A stretch of DNA of 49,902 nucleotides, taken from assembly GCA_026932145.1 (NCBI GenBank), contig JAIXKT010000050.1, positions 32,429 through 82,330 on the forward strand, given 5' to 3'. This stretch comes from Bacteroidia bacterium (GTDB lineage: Bacteria; Bacteroidota; Bacteroidia; J057; JAIXKT01). Made by a program: the position numbers and the translations under genes. Below the pieces are notes generated by a model. The model made no database searches. It was not told where the DNA came from and saw only the letters and a list, made by a program, of their open reading frames with translations. Below are positions 12,102-47,272 of this stretch, piece after piece (within the stretch, counting starts at the first letter, position 1; each line of letters opens with the position of its first letter).

Positions 12102-12150
12102 AGAAAAAATCTTACTTGTAGTAAAAACATAAATAGACTTTATATAAGGT

Positions 12151-12595
12151 GGGTTCTATAATTTAAATCATTGTTATTCAAGCAATTATATGTATATTTG
12201 CGTATAATTTAACACGAAAATAATATGACATCACAAGAGTATAAAACCAATGGCCAAAAAGGATTATTTGAAGAGCAATATACTATTGAACATTTGTCTG
12301 CAATTGGCAATCCTTTAGAAAGAATAAGCAATGTTATTGTATAATCGGGCTTATCAACCTTACCTACAACTTATTCAGGCTTGAACAAGTACAAAGACTA
12401 AATTTGCTCAAATCTTAAAATATTGTTAATTAGTTAGTTGCGAATTATCGAATAAAAAATAAAAATTTTGTATCTGAATTAAAAAATAATTTGTACAATT
12501 ACTTACTTTTTCAACCCAGATTTAAAAGGGTTCTAATTTGTGTCTGAAAAAAATAAAAAAAACTAATTTTTAGAAGCTACCTTAAGTTAGAACCC
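12151..12595 (+). mobile_element. Internally deleted IS5-like element (MITE-like remnant)
   Basis: The two ends carry the same 8-bp sequence in inverted orientation: GGGTTCTA at 12151-12158 and its complement TAGAACCC at 12588-12595. Between them lie the first 39 codons and the last 23 codons of what looks like an IS5-family transposase, with everything between deleted. A third copy of GGGTTCTA is at 12528-12535. The stretch 12102-12761 (660 bases) contains no intact gene. The terminal match is short and I see no clear target-site duplication, so the exact boundaries are provisional. Confidence 0.55.
12225..12418 (+). pseudogene. IS5-family transposase remnant (N terminus joined to C terminus)
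   Basis: An ATG at 12225 opens 39 codons containing LFEEQYTIEHLSAIGNPLER, which resembles the N terminus of IS5-type transposases (LFxEEFxLEKLSKLGDPLEKL). The frame stops at 12342-12344. From 12347, in another frame, comes GLINLTYNLFRLEQVQRL, ending in a TAA at 12416-12418, which resembles the C-terminal end of the same family. The central DDE catalytic domain is absent, so the gene is dead. The junction lies at about 12336-12346. Recognition of the family is from memory of its motifs and should be treated as likely rather than certain. Confidence 0.65.
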
Positions 12596-37233: not shown

Positions 37234-38520
37234 TTATTTAAAATACGATTTTAGCGGTTCTAAATCCGGAGGGTGTAGCCTAAATCGTTTTTGTTCAAGC
37301 AGTAATAAAACTTCCGAAAGTCTTTTTAAAAATGGGAGGGCTAATAAGTAAAGTTCGTTATTACCGTCATTGAGGTCTCCGTCACTATCGGCAAAAATTG
37401 TTGCGCTGAGCATAAATTCTACATTATGGTTAAAATCAGCAATATAGGCAACGTCAGTAGCAAATCCCCAAGCAATTCCTACTTTGTTGAAAGAGCGAAC
37501 GTTTGAATCCACCTGTGAAGTAATGCCTCCATATAAAAAATACTTCATAAAGCCTGAAGGATACCTTAGGCTGTCTTGATAATTTGGAAATAATGATTCC
37601 TTGGGATACATTCCCATATATTTTCGGAGAAAGTCATAATCATCTTCTGATATTTGAAATCGTTGGCTATCAGGCATACAATTTGGCAACATAATAGCTA
37701 TCAGGATTTTATGTAAGTCCGGTAAACTTATTGAGGTATGATATTCTACCGGATAAGTTCTGACCGAAGTTACTTTAGTTTTGGGATTAATAGTAGAAAC
37801 CGGAAAGTCTTTAAACCGGTTTCTGAAAATATTCGGGTTTTTTTGTCTTGGTTGGTAGCATAAAGTAGAATCTCCTTGTTTAAAAATTACGGCATTTGTT
37901 TCTCTATTTTGTTCGGTAGAGCATAGATGATATAAACGGTGTAAAAGTCGGGCACTTAAAAAACCTTTTGCCCAAAGGGACTCGTTTAATTTTTGCTGAC
38001 CAAGCAGTTCATAGAGTCTGTCGTAGGCTTCATTATCGCTAACGAGCAGGATTTTTTTGATATAATTAGCAATAGAAGGCTTGTAGCTTAGCGTAGTAGT
38101 ATCTATGGTTGCCGAAGTTTGGCAAGTACCTTGAGCGATATGCTGAACCTCTGTAAACTTATTTACACCAAGAGTTTCTAAATTCTTAATGTATTCAAGG
38201 GCTAATGCACAAGCCGGAAGTTTAACAGTACTTGCCGGATAGAAGTATGAACCCGTATCTACTTGATAAGAATAATGGCGCAAATGAGGTGTTTGGTCTT
38301 CGTCCCTATCAATTTGTGTATAAATAATTTGAATTTTAAATCGTTTTGGATTTTGCCAAATAGCTCGGTATTCCGGTAATAAGTTTTGAAGAGTAGAATC
38401 GAGCCATTTTGAAGTACCAAACATAGTTTGCTCTGCAAAGTACGCAGTAGTTTGAGCTTCAGTAGAAAAAGAAACTATTAAGAGAACTATTAAATATAAA
38501 TATCTCATAAATAGGTTCAT
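37234..38520 (-). CDS. Class-A-beta-lactamase-like serine hydrolase, exported
   Basis: Exported serine hydrolase with the class A beta-lactamase / D-Ala-D-Ala peptidase fold. In 428 residues there is a signal peptide (MRYLYLIVLLIVSFS, cut after EAQ), the active-site Ser97-x-x-Lys100 in YPASTVKLP, the Ser161-Asp-Asn163 loop in LVSDNEAYD, and a Lys-Val-Gly in NKVGIAWG in place of the usual Lys-Thr-Gly. The long insertions and the altered third motif argue against a true beta-lactamase; a peptidase or esterase role is more likely, and resistance should not be assumed. The start could be the ATG at 38520 or the one four codons later. It begins eight bases after the acylase remnant and is probably the last gene of the gyrB transcript. 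Confidence 0.82.
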   Translation of the reverse strand: MNLFMRYLYLIVLLIVSFSTEAQTTAYFAEQTMFGTSKWLDSTLQNLLPEYRAIWQNPKRFKIQIIYTQIDRDEDQTPHLRHYSYQVDTGSYFYPASTVKLPACALALEYIKNLETLGVNKFTEVQHIAQGTCQTSATIDTTTLSYKPSIANYIKKILLVSDNEAYDRLYELLGQQKLNESLWAKGFLSARLLHRLYHLCSTEQNRETNAVIFKQGDSTLCYQPRQKNPNIFRNRFKDFPVSTINPKTKVTSVRTYPVEYHTSISLPDLHKILIAIMLPNCMPDSQRFQISEDDYDFLRKYMGMYPKESLFPNYQDSLRYPSGFMKYFLYGGITSQVDSNVRSFNKVGIAWGFATDVAYIADFNHNVEFMLSATIFADSDGDLNDGNNELYLLALPFLKRLSEVLLLLEQKRFRLHPPDLEPLKSYFK

Positions 38521-38528
38521 GGTTAGGT

Positions 38529-38744
38529 TTATTCTGGATGATACACCTTGGAGGTAGATTTTAGCAGTTCTTCTTTATTTAATACAAGTTGTCCATAGGC
38601 GGCTTCGGCATCTGTTTTAGCAAAAATATCTGGAATACCCCATTCGTCCCGAATAATTTCAATATTTTGTGTATCAATTGTTTGGCTATACAAAAAATCA
38701 TAAACAATGCTTAGACACAAGAAAACAAAAAAAACTTTGGTCAT
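38529..38744 (-). pseudogene. Penicillin-acylase-family gene reduced by an internal in-frame deletion
   Basis: A 71-codon open frame that encodes a signal peptide (MTKVFFVFLCLSIVYDFLYS), then the start of a penicillin/AHL acylase (IEIIRDEWGIPDIFAKTDAEAAYG, residues 28-51), and directly after that a sequence (LVLNKEELLKSTSKVYHPE) that resembles the extreme C terminus of the same family. Intact members are 700-800 residues, so the whole catalytic region, including the Ntn nucleophile Ser, is missing. The frame remains open, so a short exported peptide may still be made. It sits between the adhesin-like gene (23 bases upstream) and the serine hydrolase (8 bases downstream). The N-terminal match is strong; the C-terminal match is from memory of family endings. 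Confidence 0.72.
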
Positions 38745-38767
38745 GATTTTTCGGTAAATTTATGTGT

Positions 38768-39604
38768 TTACTGTGCGTTGTAAACGGTTATTTTTCCTCG
38801 ACTGGTTGTTAGTTTTAGGGTTTTGCCCCCGCCATTTAACTTACCGTCTAAGAGTTTATAGCTGATATTTCCCTCAAACTTTACGTTTCGAAAGTCATAT
38901 AAGATATTGTCTGCTGAGGAAAAATTACAATTATATCCTACGTATTTAGGTATTGAAAGAGTAACGTTTGCAGACTTAGAGGTGATTTCTACCGGTATTT
39001 CACCGCTTAGGTTCACTTGAATTTCTCCTTTTCCGGCAATAATTTCGAGTTTACCATCTAAAAGGTTTAAGTCCATATCAGAATTATCGGTGATAAACTT
39101 AAATGCAGCCGAGCAGCCTTTTACCGTAATTTTGGAAGACTTTGAATTAACGGTAATCATACCGCTTTTGATATTTTCCAACAAAACATCTTTATGATTG
39201 GTTTTGAGAGAAATATCGTTTTTCAAGTTTTTGATACTCAGCGGAGAAGCGTCAGAGGTGATGTCCAACGATATTTTTTCCGGTAAACTTATTTCGTATA
39301 GGTATTCAAAGTTGCTGTTAGTTTGTTCAATCAGCAGGGTTTCGTTTGTGAAATCTTGTTTGATGTTAGGTTCTCTTTCAAAGTCTGCTAATTTTTTTTC
39401 ATTTGGGACTATCAGCGTTACCCTAACGTAGGCATAATCATCGGGAGAATCTGAAATGGAATATTTTCCGTTTAGGGTTTTGAAAATGACTTGCCTTACT
39501 TCTTTGCGGGTATGTCTAAAATCAACGATGCGCTTGGTAATATCTTTTGCGAAAGCGGGTATGCTGATAAGGAGGGATAAAGCGATAACTATATAGGTAG
39601 GCAT
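38768..39604 (-). CDS. Exported adhesin-like beta-repeat protein (DUF4097-type)
   Basis: Predicted periplasmic or surface protein. The 278-residue protein has a signal peptide (MPTYIVIALSLLISIPAFA) and a series of short beta-strand repeats from about residue 100 on (LSIKNLKNDISLKTNHKDVLLENIK, MDLNLLDGKLEIIAGKGEIQVNLSG, LKLTTSRGKITVYNAQ), the pattern of putative auto-transporter adhesin / DUF4097 beta-helix proteins. There is no membrane anchor or type IX domain. It begins 20 bases after the gyrB stop and is followed 23 bases later by the acylase remnant, so the genes are likely read from the gyrB promoter. Function unknown. Confidence 0.72.
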   Translation of the reverse strand: MPTYIVIALSLLISIPAFAKDITKRIVDFRHTRKEVRQVIFKTLNGKYSISDSPDDYAYVRVTLIVPNEKKLADFEREPNIKQDFTNETLLIEQTNSNFEYLYEISLPEKISLDITSDASPLSIKNLKNDISLKTNHKDVLLENIKSGMITVNSKSSKITVKGCSAAFKFITDNSDMDLNLLDGKLEIIAGKGEIQVNLSGEIPVEITSKSANVTLSIPKYVGYNCNFSSADNILYDFRNVKFEGNISYKLLDGKLNGGGKTLKLTTSRGKITVYNAQ

Positions 39605-39624
39605 GGTACTGATATTTTAGATTT

Positions 39625-41610
<1,986 letters not shown>

Positions 41611-41873: not shown

Positions 41874-42692
41874 TTGATATTGGCTTCAACTAAATTTGTA
41901 CGGTTTTATTCAGTAGTTAGTTTTATTGTGTGCTGTGTAGTAATGAGTAGCTGTAATAAGTTTATGGCAAGTTTATTACAATCGCCTGCTGATAAGATAT
42001 ATTCACAAGAAAAGCATACAACTAAGGCACCGGTAATTAAGTATCTTCATTCAGAGGAGGATACAAACGTTTCATTTCTTTCTCGCCGTAAGATAAAGGT
42101 TGATGACGAGTTGGCTATTCGCTTTTTAAATATGCCGAGTGAACTTAGCCCAGAAATAAAAGGAACAGAAGCTAAAGAAAGTTATACCGTTGATTTTGAG
42201 GGGAATATTAGTTTGCTATTAATTGGAAGGGTTCAGGTAGCAGGGCTAACCTCTATAGAAGTTCGCCAAAAGTTGGAAAAAGCATACGCACATTATTATC
42301 GTGACCCGCAGATAGACGTTCGTTTAATAAATCAAAAAGTTTTTTTTATTGGGGAGACTTCCCAAAAAGCGTTTTTACTCCAAAAAGAAAGAACTCATTT
42401 AATAGAAGTTTTGGCAGAAGCAGGCGGAATAGTTCCAACGGCTAAGCCCCATAAAATAAAGATTATACGTGGTTCTTATTCTAATCCGGATATTATTTGG
42501 GTAGATTTTACCAAGTTAAGCAGTTTAGATGACCCTACGTTGTATATGCAGCCTGGCGATATTGTTTATATTCAAACTAAAGCACTATCAGCTTTTGTGC
42601 GCGAAATAGCTCCATTAATGGGAATAATCTCCATAGCTAATTTTTCCCTAAATCTGTATAACTTAATATACTTAATGACCAAACGTAATTAG
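41874..42692 (+). CDS. Wza-like polysaccharide export lipoprotein (TTG start)
   Basis: Outer-membrane polysaccharide export protein of the Wza/OPX family. It has an N-terminal lipoprotein signal (hydrophobic stretch VVSFIVCCVVMSSC with lipid-anchor Cys at about residue 27), the polysaccharide export domain (DELAIRFLNMPSELS..., SYTVDFEGNISLLLIGRVQVAGLTSIEV), an SLBB-like part (KVFFIGETSQKAFLLQKERTHLIEVLAEAGG) and a C-terminal hydrophobic helix (about 245-265). No in-frame ATG precedes the signal peptide: a TAA lies just before the TTG at 41874, and a second TTG follows at 41880, so translation must begin at one of these. It is the first gene of a four-gene unit and ends four bases before the Wzc-like gene. 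Confidence 0.85.
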   Translation: MILASTKFVRFYSVVSFIVCCVVMSSCNKFMASLLQSPADKIYSQEKHTTKAPVIKYLHSEEDTNVSFLSRRKIKVDDELAIRFLNMPSELSPEIKGTEAKESYTVDFEGNISLLLIGRVQVAGLTSIEVRQKLEKAYAHYYRDPQIDVRLINQKVFFIGETSQKAFLLQKERTHLIEVLAEAGGIVPTAKPHKIKIIRGSYSNPDIIWVDFTKLSSLDDPTLYMQPGDIVYIQTKALSAFVREIAPLMGIISIANFSLNLYNLIYLMTKRN

Positions 42693-42696
42693 CCTT

Positions 42697-45063
42697 ATGG
42701 AAGGGAATAATCAAGAGATTACTAAGGTAGAGGAAATTAACTTTACTCGGATAGCGACTATTCTGTTACGAGGTAAATGGATTATTATATCTATTCTGCT
42801 AACTTGTTTATTGGGGGATTTTATTTACTTGAGATATACGATTCCAAAATATAAGGCATCTTGCAGCATCAATATAGAGGCTGACCCCGACCAAAGTCTG
42901 TTTTTTAGCAATAATAATAATAAAATTCAGCGGATTGATTTTCCGGATATCATTAACTCTCGTGGAATTATAGAAACTACAGTACGGGAGCTAAACTTAT
43001 TTGTTACCTACTATCAGGAAGGGAATGTTGTTAGTTCCGAACTGTATAAACGAAGCCCGTTTATTGTAAAATATGACTCGTCAGCATTTTTGCTGTACAA
43101 TACTTCCATAATAGTTGATTTTATTGATGAAAATACCTTTAAGTTGTTCGTAGAATCTGATCCTAAAAATCCAATAACCTGTAGTTTTTATAAGAAATGT
43201 AACTTTAAAGGAAGTGAGTTTGTTATAGAGCGAGGGCAAATAAAACAAAAACTATCTGGGCATCAATTTAGATTTAAGGTAAATACAGTTGAGCAAATGA
43301 TTAATTGGATGAAGCAAAACTTTAGCCTTAGTTGGTTTGGTAAAACAGGTACTGGTTATGTTGTTATCTTTACAGATCCTGTTTCAGAACGTGCTATAGA
43401 TTGCGCCAATAAGGTTTGTGAAGTCTATCTCAGTGAAGAATTGGATATCAAAAGACTCTCTGCAAAACAAACCGTAGATTATATTGATGAACAACTTAAT
43501 GTAATAAAATCTAATCTAAATCAATCAGAGCAGAAGTTATCTAACTATGAGCTTAAGTATAACGAAGTACAGATACAAGCCAGAAAAGAGCAAATTAATA
43601 ATGAATTAAAGGAGTTAAACTTAGAAATAGCTCAAATAGATGCTAAAAGAAAAATATTGGATGGCTTATATAAGTACATGGTTGAAAAATTTTCAGTAAA
43701 CCCTGAGGACTCCATTGTTTTTGCCCCTAACATTGAAAATGTATTTAGCCAAATATTGACTGCAAGTATTTTAAAACTTAACGAGTTATTATCTACTAAA
43801 TCAAAACTACTCTCTAAGCATACCCATAATAGCCCTATTATTCAACAATTAAACGTTGAACTAGTTGAATTACAGCAACTTATCTATGAGAATATACAAG
43901 TTAACTACGCACAAATAGCTGATAGAAAGACATTTGTTCAAAATAGAATTCGCTTATTAGAACAAAGTATTTTTAATTTTCCCACAGCCGATCAACGTAA
44001 TATTTCAGATGCTAAACGAGAATTTACGATTAATGAGGGGATATATAATTTGTTGCTACAAAAGCGTACTGAATCTTCAATCAGTATGGCAGCTACTGTT
44101 TCTAAGAGCAGGATTCTTGATAGGGCCGAGGTGTCTAATGTAGAGTTGGTTTCACCTCTACAAGCACGTACAATCGGACTTTCGATTTCAGCCGGTTTTG
44201 TCGCCAGTTTAATAGTTGTTATTCTTCGAGAGCTGTTACGTAAAAATATTTCCTACAAAAGCGAAATTGAAGACAGATTATCTATTCCGATAGTGGGCAC
44301 AATTATTCGTTCTTCTAAGAATAATCAGTCCACACTTAGTGTGTTAATAGACACTCGTTCAGCATTAACAGAATCGTTTAGGCATCTGCGCTCCAATGTC
44401 TTTTCAATTATTAGAGAACCTAAACAAGGATATTGTATCTCTACTACCTCCACGATAAGCGGAGAAGGAAAATCTTTTATTTCTATAAATTTAGCGGCTC
44501 TTGCCTCCAATACAGGTAGAAAAGTTTTACTAATAGACTTCGATTTACGTAAACCTCGCTTACATCTGTATTTTAATATAAAGAATGATATTGGAATATC
44601 TTCTGTTTTACTTGGTGAACAAACACCAGATGCCGTCATAAAGAGTACAGGCTTTCAAAACTTTGATATGATTACTGCGGGTAGTTTACCACCAAACCCC
44701 GCAGAAGTTATTGCTAACGAGAAACTTAAAGACATTATAAATTATTATCGAGAAAAATATGACTATATTTTCTTTGATACTTCGCCGGTTGGTTTAGTAA
44801 CCGACGCATTAAGCCTACTCAAGATGAGTGATCTCTCCTTATATGTGATACGTTCTGATTACTCTAAGAAAACTTTTTTGAATAATATAGAAACTATTCA
44901 AAATGAAAATCAGTTGAAAAACCTTTATATCGTATTTAACTATGTAGATATGGAACACGAAGGTTATGGTTATGGTTATGGTTACAACTATGGTTATGGT
45001 TACGGATATTATATTGATTCTGACCATAGGCCGTGGTGGAAAAAAATTATTAAATCAAAATGA
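42697..45063 (+). CDS. Wzc-like polysaccharide copolymerase / BY-kinase
   Basis: Inner-membrane chain-length regulator and bacterial tyrosine kinase that controls capsule or EPS polymerisation. The 788-residue protein has a TM helix at about 28-45, a Wzz-type periplasmic coiled-coil region (about 50-495), a second TM helix near 498-515, and a cytoplasmic BY-kinase domain with Walker A STISGEGKS (about residue 587), Walker A' LLIDFDLRKPR, and Walker B YIFFDTSP (about 692). The C-terminal tail has nine Tyr in a Gly-Tyr repeat (about residues 756-772), the usual autophosphorylation cluster. It overlaps the phosphatase gene by four bases (ATGA). Two lines counted by hand give 25-30 % G+C, lower than the housekeeping genes. 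Confidence 0.93.
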   Translation: MEGNNQEITKVEEINFTRIATILLRGKWIIISILLTCLLGDFIYLRYTIPKYKASCSINIEADPDQSLFFSNNNNKIQRIDFPDIINSRGIIETTVRELNLFVTYYQEGNVVSSELYKRSPFIVKYDSSAFLLYNTSIIVDFIDENTFKLFVESDPKNPITCSFYKKCNFKGSEFVIERGQIKQKLSGHQFRFKVNTVEQMINWMKQNFSLSWFGKTGTGYVVIFTDPVSERAIDCANKVCEVYLSEELDIKRLSAKQTVDYIDEQLNVIKSNLNQSEQKLSNYELKYNEVQIQARKEQINNELKELNLEIAQIDAKRKILDGLYKYMVEKFSVNPEDSIVFAPNIENVFSQILTASILKLNELLSTKSKLLSKHTHNSPIIQQLNVELVELQQLIYENIQVNYAQIADRKTFVQNRIRLLEQSIFNFPTADQRNISDAKREFTINEGIYNLLLQKRTESSISMAATVSKSRILDRAEVSNVELVSPLQARTIGLSISAGFVASLIVVILRELLRKNISYKSEIEDRLSIPIVGTIIRSSKNNQSTLSVLIDTRSALTESFRHLRSNVFSIIREPKQGYCISTTSTISGEGKSFISINLAALASNTGRKVLLIDFDLRKPRLHLYFNIKNDIGISSVLLGEQTPDAVIKSTGFQNFDMITAGSLPPNPAEVIANEKLKDIINYYREKYDYIFFDTSPVGLVTDALSLLKMSDLSLYVIRSDYSKKTFLNNIETIQNENQLKNLYIVFNYVDMEHEGYGYGYGYNYGYGYGYYIDSDHRPWWKKIIKSK

Positions 45064-45815
45064 GCTGGTTTCAAAACTTATTTAGAAAATCAAAAGATAG
45101 CCAATCTTCTTTAAGTTTGGCTATCTTGAAGGTTGATATGCACTCTCATCTACTGCCCGGTATTGATGACGGTTCGCAATCTATAGAAGAATCTATCACT
45201 TTAATTCGCGGATTATATGAACTCGGCTACCGCAAGTTAATCACCACCCCTCACGTGATGGCAGACCAGTATCGAAATACACCAGAAATAATCCAAACTA
45301 AGTTAGCAGAAGTCCAAGCTAAATTAGCAGACCTTCAAATATCGATTCAGATAGAAGCATCTGCCGAATATATGATTGACGACGGATTTGAGGCTAAGTT
45401 AGAAAATAAAGAACTCATTACATTTGGTAATCAGCATATTTTAGTAGAAACTTCTATGATGGTTCAACCGCCTTTTTTTGAGGAAATTATTTTCAAATTA
45501 AAAACAAGCGGCTATCGCCCAATATTGGCGCATCCAGAACGATATAATTTTTATTGGCAAGACTTTAAGCAATTTCACCGGCTAAAAGACTTAGGCTTAC
45601 TACTCCAGCTAAATATCAACTCCTTATCCGGAGTATATGCTCCGTTAGCAGTAAAGGCAGCTAAATATTTAATTCAAAATAATCTTATAGATTTTCTGGG
45701 AACAGATACACACCACGAAAGACATTTACAATTAATTTCCAAAACAGTTTTACATCCGGATATACAGCAACTGCTTAATTCCGGGCGGCTACAGAACTAT
45801 ACCTTATGCAACTAA
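45060..45815 (+). CDS. CpsB/YwqE-like PHP-domain protein-tyrosine phosphatase
   Basis: Metal-dependent tyrosine phosphatase that should dephosphorylate the adjacent Wzc-like kinase. The 251-residue PHP-fold protein has the metal ligands in DMHSHLLPGIDDG (His28, His30), the TTPHVM stretch, ILAHPERYNF and the C-terminal GTDTHHERH (near residue 218). It resembles CpsB of Streptococcus and YwqE of Bacillus rather than the low-molecular-weight Wzb type. Its start overlaps the kinase stop by four bases and its end overlaps the flippase gene by ten, so the three are translationally linked. Confidence 0.92.
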   Translation: MSWFQNLFRKSKDSQSSLSLAILKVDMHSHLLPGIDDGSQSIEESITLIRGLYELGYRKLITTPHVMADQYRNTPEIIQTKLAEVQAKLADLQISIQIEASAEYMIDDGFEAKLENKELITFGNQHILVETSMMVQPPFFEEIIFKLKTSGYRPILAHPERYNFYWQDFKQFHRLKDLGLLLQLNINSLSGVYAPLAVKAAKYLIQNNLIDFLGTDTHHERHLQLISKTVLHPDIQQLLNSGRLQNYTLCN

Positions 45816-47272
45816 GACGGTTAGCATCTCAAAGTGCTTTATACGGACTTAGTTCTATTATCGGAAGATTAATTAATTGGTTATTAACGCCCTATTTTGT
45901 TCACCATTTTTCTTTATCTGACTTTGGTGCATTCTCTGACCTATATGCGTGGATGTTTTATCCCCAAATTTTGCTGACTCTTGGCTTAGAAACCTCTTTC
46001 TTTAGATTTTCTCAAAATACTGAATCAGCGGATAAAAATTATGCAAACTCTACGTGGGCAATTTTTCTACTATCCTGTTGTTTCGGAATAGTTATTATTA
46101 GTTTTAATCCCTTCATTTCAAAAATATTAGGTTACTCAAGTAACCCTGAGTGGGTTTTGTTGGTAGCTGGAATTATTATCTTAGATTGCTGGGCAGCCTT
46201 GCCAATGGCAAAGTTACGTTATGACCAAAAGGCCAAGCAGTTTGTATTTACCTCATTGGTAAGTATCGCTATCACGCTGTTATTAAGTATTTTATTTGTT
46301 ACTATTTTATCTTGGGGAGTATCTGGTGCGCTGTTGGCAAATCTAATAGCATCTTTGGTACGGTTACTTTGTGCATTGTATCAAAACTTACCTAATCCGT
46401 ATAAGTTGTCATTAAAAAAAGTGCAGCAATTGGGTTACTACGGTAGTTTTATTATGGTAGCTGGCTTAGTAGGCTCTTTAAATGAAACTTTAGATAGGAA
46501 TTTGCTGCCGCGCTTATGGAAAACGGGTTGGTATTTCGGCGCAGTGCGTACAGGCTTAGAACTCAATGCAATTTATTCCGCTAATTATAAACTTGGAATG
46601 ATCATCACATTGGTTTCACAAGCTTTTCGGTATGCAGCAGACCCCATCTTTTTTAAAAATATCCAAAATAAAAATAGCCAAACTTTTCTGGCACGTAGCT
46701 TCTTCTACTTTGTATTACTTTGTTTACTTGCATTTTTTATAATTTCCAGCTTCTCTTTTGAAATAGTATCATTTCACTTTTGGGGGCTTACCAGCAAAAC
46801 CTTACTCCCAAATTCTTATTGGGTAGGAATAAAAGCAATCCCGCTAATATTGTTAGCAAACGTTTTCTTAGCTACTTATTATCAGTTAAGTATCTGGTTT
46901 AAAATTACCGGACAGTTACGTTTTGGGTTGTTTTTTGCCATTATAGGTGCGTTAATAACTATCTTCGGAAATGTAGTATTTATTCCTTATTTCGGATTTA
47001 TAGCCTGCGCATGGGCAACTTTTTTTTGCTACCTAACAATGACAGTCTTATGTTATCTTGTGGGGCAACAATACTATCGGATTCCCTATCCAATTAAGCG
47101 AATCTCTGGATACGCCATCCTGCTCATAACCGCTTCCTTATTAAACCAAAAACTTACAACTATTGGCATTTTTAACCTAAATGAATTTATGTTAAAAATG
47201 CTAATCTCAATACTTGCAATCAGTATCATAGGAATTATAGAATCCAAAAAACCAATTGCATGGCCTACCTAA
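45806..47272 (+). CDS. Wzx-like lipopolysaccharide/EPS flippase (MATE/MVF superfamily)
   Basis: Inner-membrane flippase likely to move lipid-linked oligosaccharide units to the periplasm. The 488-residue protein has about twelve hydrophobic helices, starting with RRLASQSALYGLSSIIGRLINWLLTPYFVHHFS, the usual N terminus of Polysacc_synt proteins, with ALPMAKLRYDQKAKQF near residue 131 and a paired arrangement in the second half. No catalytic residues are expected. Its ATG overlaps the phosphatase gene by ten bases. It is the last gene of the exopolysaccharide unit; no glycosyltransferase or polymerase gene is in the window, so the sugar-building genes must be elsewhere. A teichoic-acid or O-antigen substrate cannot be excluded. 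Confidence 0.88.
   Translation: MQLRRLASQSALYGLSSIIGRLINWLLTPYFVHHFSLSDFGAFSDLYAWMFYPQILLTLGLETSFFRFSQNTESADKNYANSTWAIFLLSCCFGIVIISFNPFISKILGYSSNPEWVLLVAGIIILDCWAALPMAKLRYDQKAKQFVFTSLVSIAITLLLSILFVTILSWGVSGALLANLIASLVRLLCALYQNLPNPYKLSLKKVQQLGYYGSFIMVAGLVGSLNETLDRNLLPRLWKTGWYFGAVRTGLELNAIYSANYKLGMIITLVSQAFRYAADPIFFKNIQNKNSQTFLARSFFYFVLLCLLAFFIISSFSFEIVSFHFWGLTSKTLLPNSYWVGIKAIPLILLANVFLATYYQLSIWFKITGQLRFGLFFAIIGALITIFGNVVFIPYFGFIACAWATFFCYLTMTVLCYLVGQQYYRIPYPIKRISGYAILLITASLLNQKLTTIGIFNLNEFMLKMLISILAISIIGIIESKKPIAWPT

Follow-up and report, generated by a model that had tools for sequence, protein, structure and literature searches.

A short open reading frame in a Bacteroidia genome as the probable remnant of a penicillin amidase family gene

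A 71-codon open reading frame, running from ATG to TAA on the minus strand at 38529..38744, was analysed within a 49,902-nucleotide stretch of contig JAIXKT010000050.1 of a Bacteroidia bacterium (assembly GCA_026932145.1; the whole stretch is referred to as the window, and all positions are counted within it). The frame is very probably the remnant of a fifth PF01804 (penicillin amidase) paralogue of this genome which lost its middle through an in-frame internal deletion. No internal stop codon interrupts 38529-38744 on the minus strand. The frame comprises a predicted hydrophobic leader (residues 1-21, 38682..38744) in the same place as the leader of full-length homologues, a conserved N-terminal block that ends in an invariant glycine and was delimited by Pfam and homologue alignment (residues 27-51, 38592..38666), and a C-terminal acylase block delimited by tail placement and homologue alignment, ending Y-H-P-E (residues 53-71 and the stop codon, 38529..38588). 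Between the two blocks lies the deletion junction (codons 51-53, 38586..38594), where N-terminal similarity ends at G51 and C-terminal similarity begins at L53; a preliminary description of this DNA, made from the sequence alone, had put it near 38590.

Identity of the two ends and position of the junction

The two-ended acylase structure of the frame is real and not a product of chance. A Pfam search aligns residues 28-52 with positions 2-26 of the 675 in the PF01804 profile (E 3.2e-4, 20.3 bits), and the whole-protein score stays below the curated cut-off (20.3 against 21.3 bits) that a working enzyme would exceed. Penicillin acylases made up 15 of the 16 solved sequences found at E<=10, all of them weak matches, the best with E 0.048 over residues 25-54. 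When the two halves were compared by BLASTP with the four full-length acylases of the same genome, as the preliminary description had proposed, the N-terminal part was recovered in three of them (E 3e-12, 3e-9 and 5e-9, in this four-sequence set) and the C-terminal part as a separate piece in L003 only (8/18 identical, E 0.014). The alignment of the frame with L003 begins already at residue 4, within the leader.

The second half was placed by a comparison with 41 full-length acylases, four of them the genome's own and 37 those of relatives; the 37 were what remained of 39 outside matches at E<=2e-4 without G015:C1095, a 365-aa frame, and G023:C22, which lies at the start of a contig. Placed without gaps, residues 52-71 found their best spot at most 15 residues from the C-terminal end in 39 of the 41 proteins, the exceptions being own_L001, a distant member, and L133; that the second half is an acylase C terminus, as originally proposed, is thereby upheld. 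With 200 shuffles of the tail for each protein, none equalled the true score in 30 of the 41 acylases, and 1 to 118 of 200 did so in the other 11. Residues G51, Y68 and P70 are invariant in all 39 homologues aligned over both blocks, a profile that omits own_L001 and L133. Leader, N block and C block align, in the right order, with those of full-length PF01804 acylases (G000:C39, C47 and C8 in this genome, L098-L134 in relatives), and PF01804 ancestry is established by homologous blocks at both ends.

The junction is sharp. Against the N block residues 42-51 score +39.9 on average, and residues 52-61 score only -3.4 (best +4) against the usual continuation of that block; conversely, the mean is +18.7 for residues 53-62 compared with the C block, but -7.5 (best +5) for residues 43-52 compared with the sequence that usually precedes that block. 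The blocks used for the alignment and for these scores were located through their best match to the fragment, which biases them slightly toward agreement. Tail placement, block alignment and junction scores agree with the initial proposal that only the two ends of an acylase gene survive, still in frame with each other. In 40 homologues (own_L001 was not in this alignment) the two blocks are separated by 618-651 residues, with a median of 622; for a deletion within one gene the loss therefore amounts to about 1.87 kb. Short direct repeats, which had been suggested as something to look for at the junction, were not found there: 38300-39000 contains weak two-copy families only, none with a copy at the junction, and microhomology would be judgeable only with the parent sequence.

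Compared with full-length PF01804 acylases the frame lacks approximately 622 residues, among them the middle region in which we presume the catalytic nucleophile, at the start of the beta chain, to lie. Since nearly the whole fold is gone together with the middle region that would hold the nucleophile, the remnant cannot be an acylase; intact homologues exist, and the parts essential to them are missing from it.

Paralogues, relatives and the probable course of events

The genome (3.48 Mb in 66 contigs, estimated contamination 3.01) contains four full-length PF01804 genes, and the remnant was the sole fifth match at E<=10. The only NCBIfam model matched by the three similar paralogues was PvdQ, at 95-164 bits against a cut-off of 950; scores so far below the cut-off do not allow a substrate to be assigned from the model, and the label of acyl-homoserine lactone (AHL) acylase used in the preliminary description is not established. 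A search of the assembly with the 501 bases around the remnant (38400-38900) gave no second copy, and the nine other hits were short with E above 0.03.

The synonymous codon choice of the frame resembles that of the window genes. The guanine plus cytosine content by codon position is 0.46/0.28/0.25, as against 0.47/0.37/0.34 for a reference of 27 hand-picked window genes, and when 2000 random 71-codon pieces were taken from these genes, 98% followed their codon usage less closely than the frame does. On a profile of conserved columns the remnant falls in the lower range, with 13 of 39 members scoring lower in the N block and 9 of 39 in the C block, and at position 39 it has D where all 39 homologues have H or Y. 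Codon use and profile scores suggest a once-working gene with little later decay, and would suit a recent neutral remnant and a constrained peptide alike.

The course of events that we infer is a single deletion that would have removed about 620 codons (~1.87 kb), roughly nine tenths of the whole, from the middle of the fifth acylase gene, whose product would have been a large secreted enzyme acting on amide bonds. The reading frame would have been kept by chance, as is expected about one time in three, and the product would consist of the leader, the first ~30 mature residues and the last 19. The frame is open because the retained pieces bring with them the open frame of the parent gene, and probably remains so because the deletion was fairly recent; the remnant would still be co-transcribed, as a passenger in a tight row of minus-strand genes. 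The remnant is most likely functionless and the deletion recent. A two-ended, in-frame deletion had been called unusual for decay, a view that does not hold when one such deletion in three keeps the frame, and the clean outcome resembles the everyday loss of one gene from a genome in which others of its family persist.

The relatives were searched for an intact gene at this place and for other remnants. Among 60 genomes, made up of this one and 59 relatives, 34 had a match to the 71-aa frame at E<=10, in some cases a weak one. When 295 genomes were drawn from the class, matches at E<=1e-7 numbered 104 and came from 39 genomes, this one among them; of the 102 matches outside this genome (38 genomes), 94 belong to frames no shorter than 694 aa and eight to shorter ones, all under 600 aa, of which seven run off a contig end and one into a run of N. 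No second two-ended short frame was present among these outside matches, at a threshold (E<=1e-7) that may miss more diverged remnants. The comparison of the locus in relatives, advised in the preliminary description, yielded no positional orthologue of the frame in the 60-genome set or in the 295-genome draw. PF01804-like acylases are numerous in some lineages of the class, with up to 13 first-look candidates (G066, G073), and several acylase-bearing lineages have tandem genes on one strand, 2.1-2.3 kb apart (G033:C101, G112:C266, G066:C100, G226:C48, G076:C1, G276:C76 and G029:C8). The PF01804-like family seems to expand and contract in the class.

Several observations weigh against a simple internal deletion in one gene. 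In three proteins some local alignments continue past residue 51 along the usual N-terminal continuation (own L002, residues 5-66; G002:C32, 9-68; G008:C161, 14-68); the tail nevertheless still scores best at the C terminus in all three, although its placement in G008:C161 (L106) is weak and was reached by 23 of 200 shuffles. The tandem acylases of relatives would allow a deletion to start in one copy and end in its neighbour. The GTDB family consists of this genome alone, and an intact acylase at this place was not found in any genome searched; the pre-deletion state can, for that reason, only be inferred. Of 22 genomes searched in the order, 14, counting this one, have the beta-lactamase-like gene that adjoins the remnant, and 25 further loci came from a search of named genomes that may omit records very close to this genome. 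The stretches taken around these homologues (L036-L058 and L073-L097) extend at most ~8 kb per side, many shortened by contig ends, and contained no acylase by tblastn with the four own acylases at E<=1e-10; larger stretches were taken for 10 of 13 order relatives, and over L005-L097 such matches occurred only at loci obtained by way of the 71-aa frame. Finally, the clean frame and the codon usage would also fit a selected peptide.

The acylase remnant fits among known kinds of sequence, namely the short frames of decaying genes and internal deletions. Short open frames in Rickettsia have been described as persisting pieces of deteriorating longer genes (PMC2374718), and they resemble the present frame in being pieces of a longer gene; in Rickettsia, however, indels and stops split a gene into several frames, whereas here one gap has left one frame. 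A 2026 preprint describes deletions that join distant coding pieces into new open frames, termed 'deletion-born fusions', mentions internal deletions in one gene (mngB) among the events that were filtered out, and states that no clear novel beneficial function was identified for any such fusion (PMC12803068). As in those cases, remote coding pieces would here have been joined by a deletion into a new open frame; the fusions join pieces of two different genes, both ends here fit one kind of gene, as they also would after a deletion across tandem acylases, and no relative with the pre-deletion arrangement was found. Literature on penicillin acylase pseudogenes in Bacteroidetes was not found, which is no proof of its absence in print.

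Alternative explanations

Four other explanations were weighed. In the first, survival in frame would itself have been favoured, because translation that runs through without a break would spare the downstream beta-lactamase-like gene from polarity or maintain its translational coupling. The short distances to the neighbouring genes on the same strand (23 nt upstream, 8 nt downstream) accord with this, as does the placement of the sole terminator-like site of 38300-39800 on the other strand (one site, against a mean of 0.9 in shuffles). An in-frame outcome at the expected frequency needs no selection, however, and a sigma-70-like pair lies upstream of the remnant on the same strand (38784-38757), though such pairs are fewer here than chance would give (one, against a shuffle mean of 4.5). 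This reading is regarded as unlikely.

A fusion peptide kept by selection, a short exported product of ~50 residues once the leader is removed, whose role would be new or residual, is an improbable reading. It accommodates the intact frame, start, leader and stop and a codon usage typical of window genes, and expression could come from its place among closely packed genes of one strand, 20, 23 and 8 nt apart. Yet the short form was seen in one genome only, the 102 other matches being full length (94), at a contig end (7) or in a run of N (1); position 39, a conserved column, has changed from H or Y to D; and a recent neutral deletion would explain the open frame. Nothing that was found indicates selection on a persisting exported peptide, as had been envisaged initially, and no second such frame turned up in the 295-genome draw. 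That the frame is either a deletion-born microprotein under selection or a leader frame held in phase for the gene 8 nt downstream has a small probability. If the frame proved to be under selection in sister strains, it would matter more, as an instance in which a deletion gave rise to a small gene.

An assembly artefact, in which the organism has a full-length gene whose ends were joined by the assembler or in binning, is very improbable. The division of the genome into 66 contigs and the estimated contamination of 3.01 would be in its favour, but a collapse requires a long repeat at both break points, and the pattern of the family would allow few shared bases there; moreover, the assembly holds no second copy or piece beyond the nine short hits with E above 0.03, and the family search returned four full-length genes and this fragment only. 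A chance open frame with no relation to acylases, to which the N-terminal Pfam score slightly below the cut-off might point, has a negligible probability and is refuted by the tail placement (39/41) and the two-block homologue alignment, since the two matches are independent and each lies at the end, and in the order, expected of an acylase.

As it stands, the in-frame internal deletion of an acylase gene is of little significance, as a single clean example of gene loss by this route in a lineage that has several acylases related to it. It also calls for caution, in that gene callers may report such remnants as 'small secreted proteins'.

Neighbouring genes and the transposase remnant of the window

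The remnant lies in a row of minus-strand genes in the order gyrB-like gene, 20 nt, DUF4097 protein gene, 23 nt, remnant, 8 nt, beta-lactamase-like gene. The preceding DUF4097 protein gene (38768..39604) ends 23 nt ahead of the remnant start codon, and the next gene, for a beta-lactamase-like protein (PF13354, 37234..38520), starts 8 nt past its stop codon. The gene at 39625..41610, which we take from its sequence to be gyrB-like, a name with no family search behind it, has homologues in 12 of 12 relatives searched (identity 68-79%), and DUF4097 homologues were present in 2 of 12. In the two genomes with both genes (G002 and G008) the DUF4097, gyrB-like and beta-lactamase-like genes lie on different contigs, and contig ends limit the comparison. 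One of these DUF4097 homologues (L059, G002:C95:20406-21227) has a TGA stop within the match, a possible sign of decay or a sequence error.

A transposase remnant elsewhere in the window (12139-12583) had been thought to share its architecture, and a common deletion process, with the acylase remnant. That view is rejected: the stretch recurs in the genome at least four more times and is a multi-copy element with interiors of variable length, whereas a search with 38400-38900 found the acylase remnant only once. The protein of the 39-aa frame in 12139-12583, which has no Pfam match, matches five other places in the genome (C55, C37, C54 twice at 84% identity, C1 at 64%). A nucleotide comparison of 12139-12583 with three of the copies gives alignments in two or more pieces, which meet near 12339; identity is 90-95% (C37) and 83-94% (C55 and one on C54), and the copies differ in interior length. 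The stretch 12139-12583 is a multi-copy element, probably derived from an insertion sequence (IS), and not an instance of shared gene decay; it looks like a non-autonomous family resembling miniature inverted-repeat transposable elements (MITE-like), and the label 'IS5-like' is our assumption. Similarity to the 3' part of the element is also seen, in inverted orientation, in L145, where there is a 162-nt inverted repeat with 97% identity.

The genes at 41874-47272 presumably form a capsule or exopolysaccharide export cluster, a name given without a family search; we take them to encode an outer-membrane export protein, a Wzc-like kinase with a YGYGYG-rich tail, a PHP-type phosphatase and a flippase.
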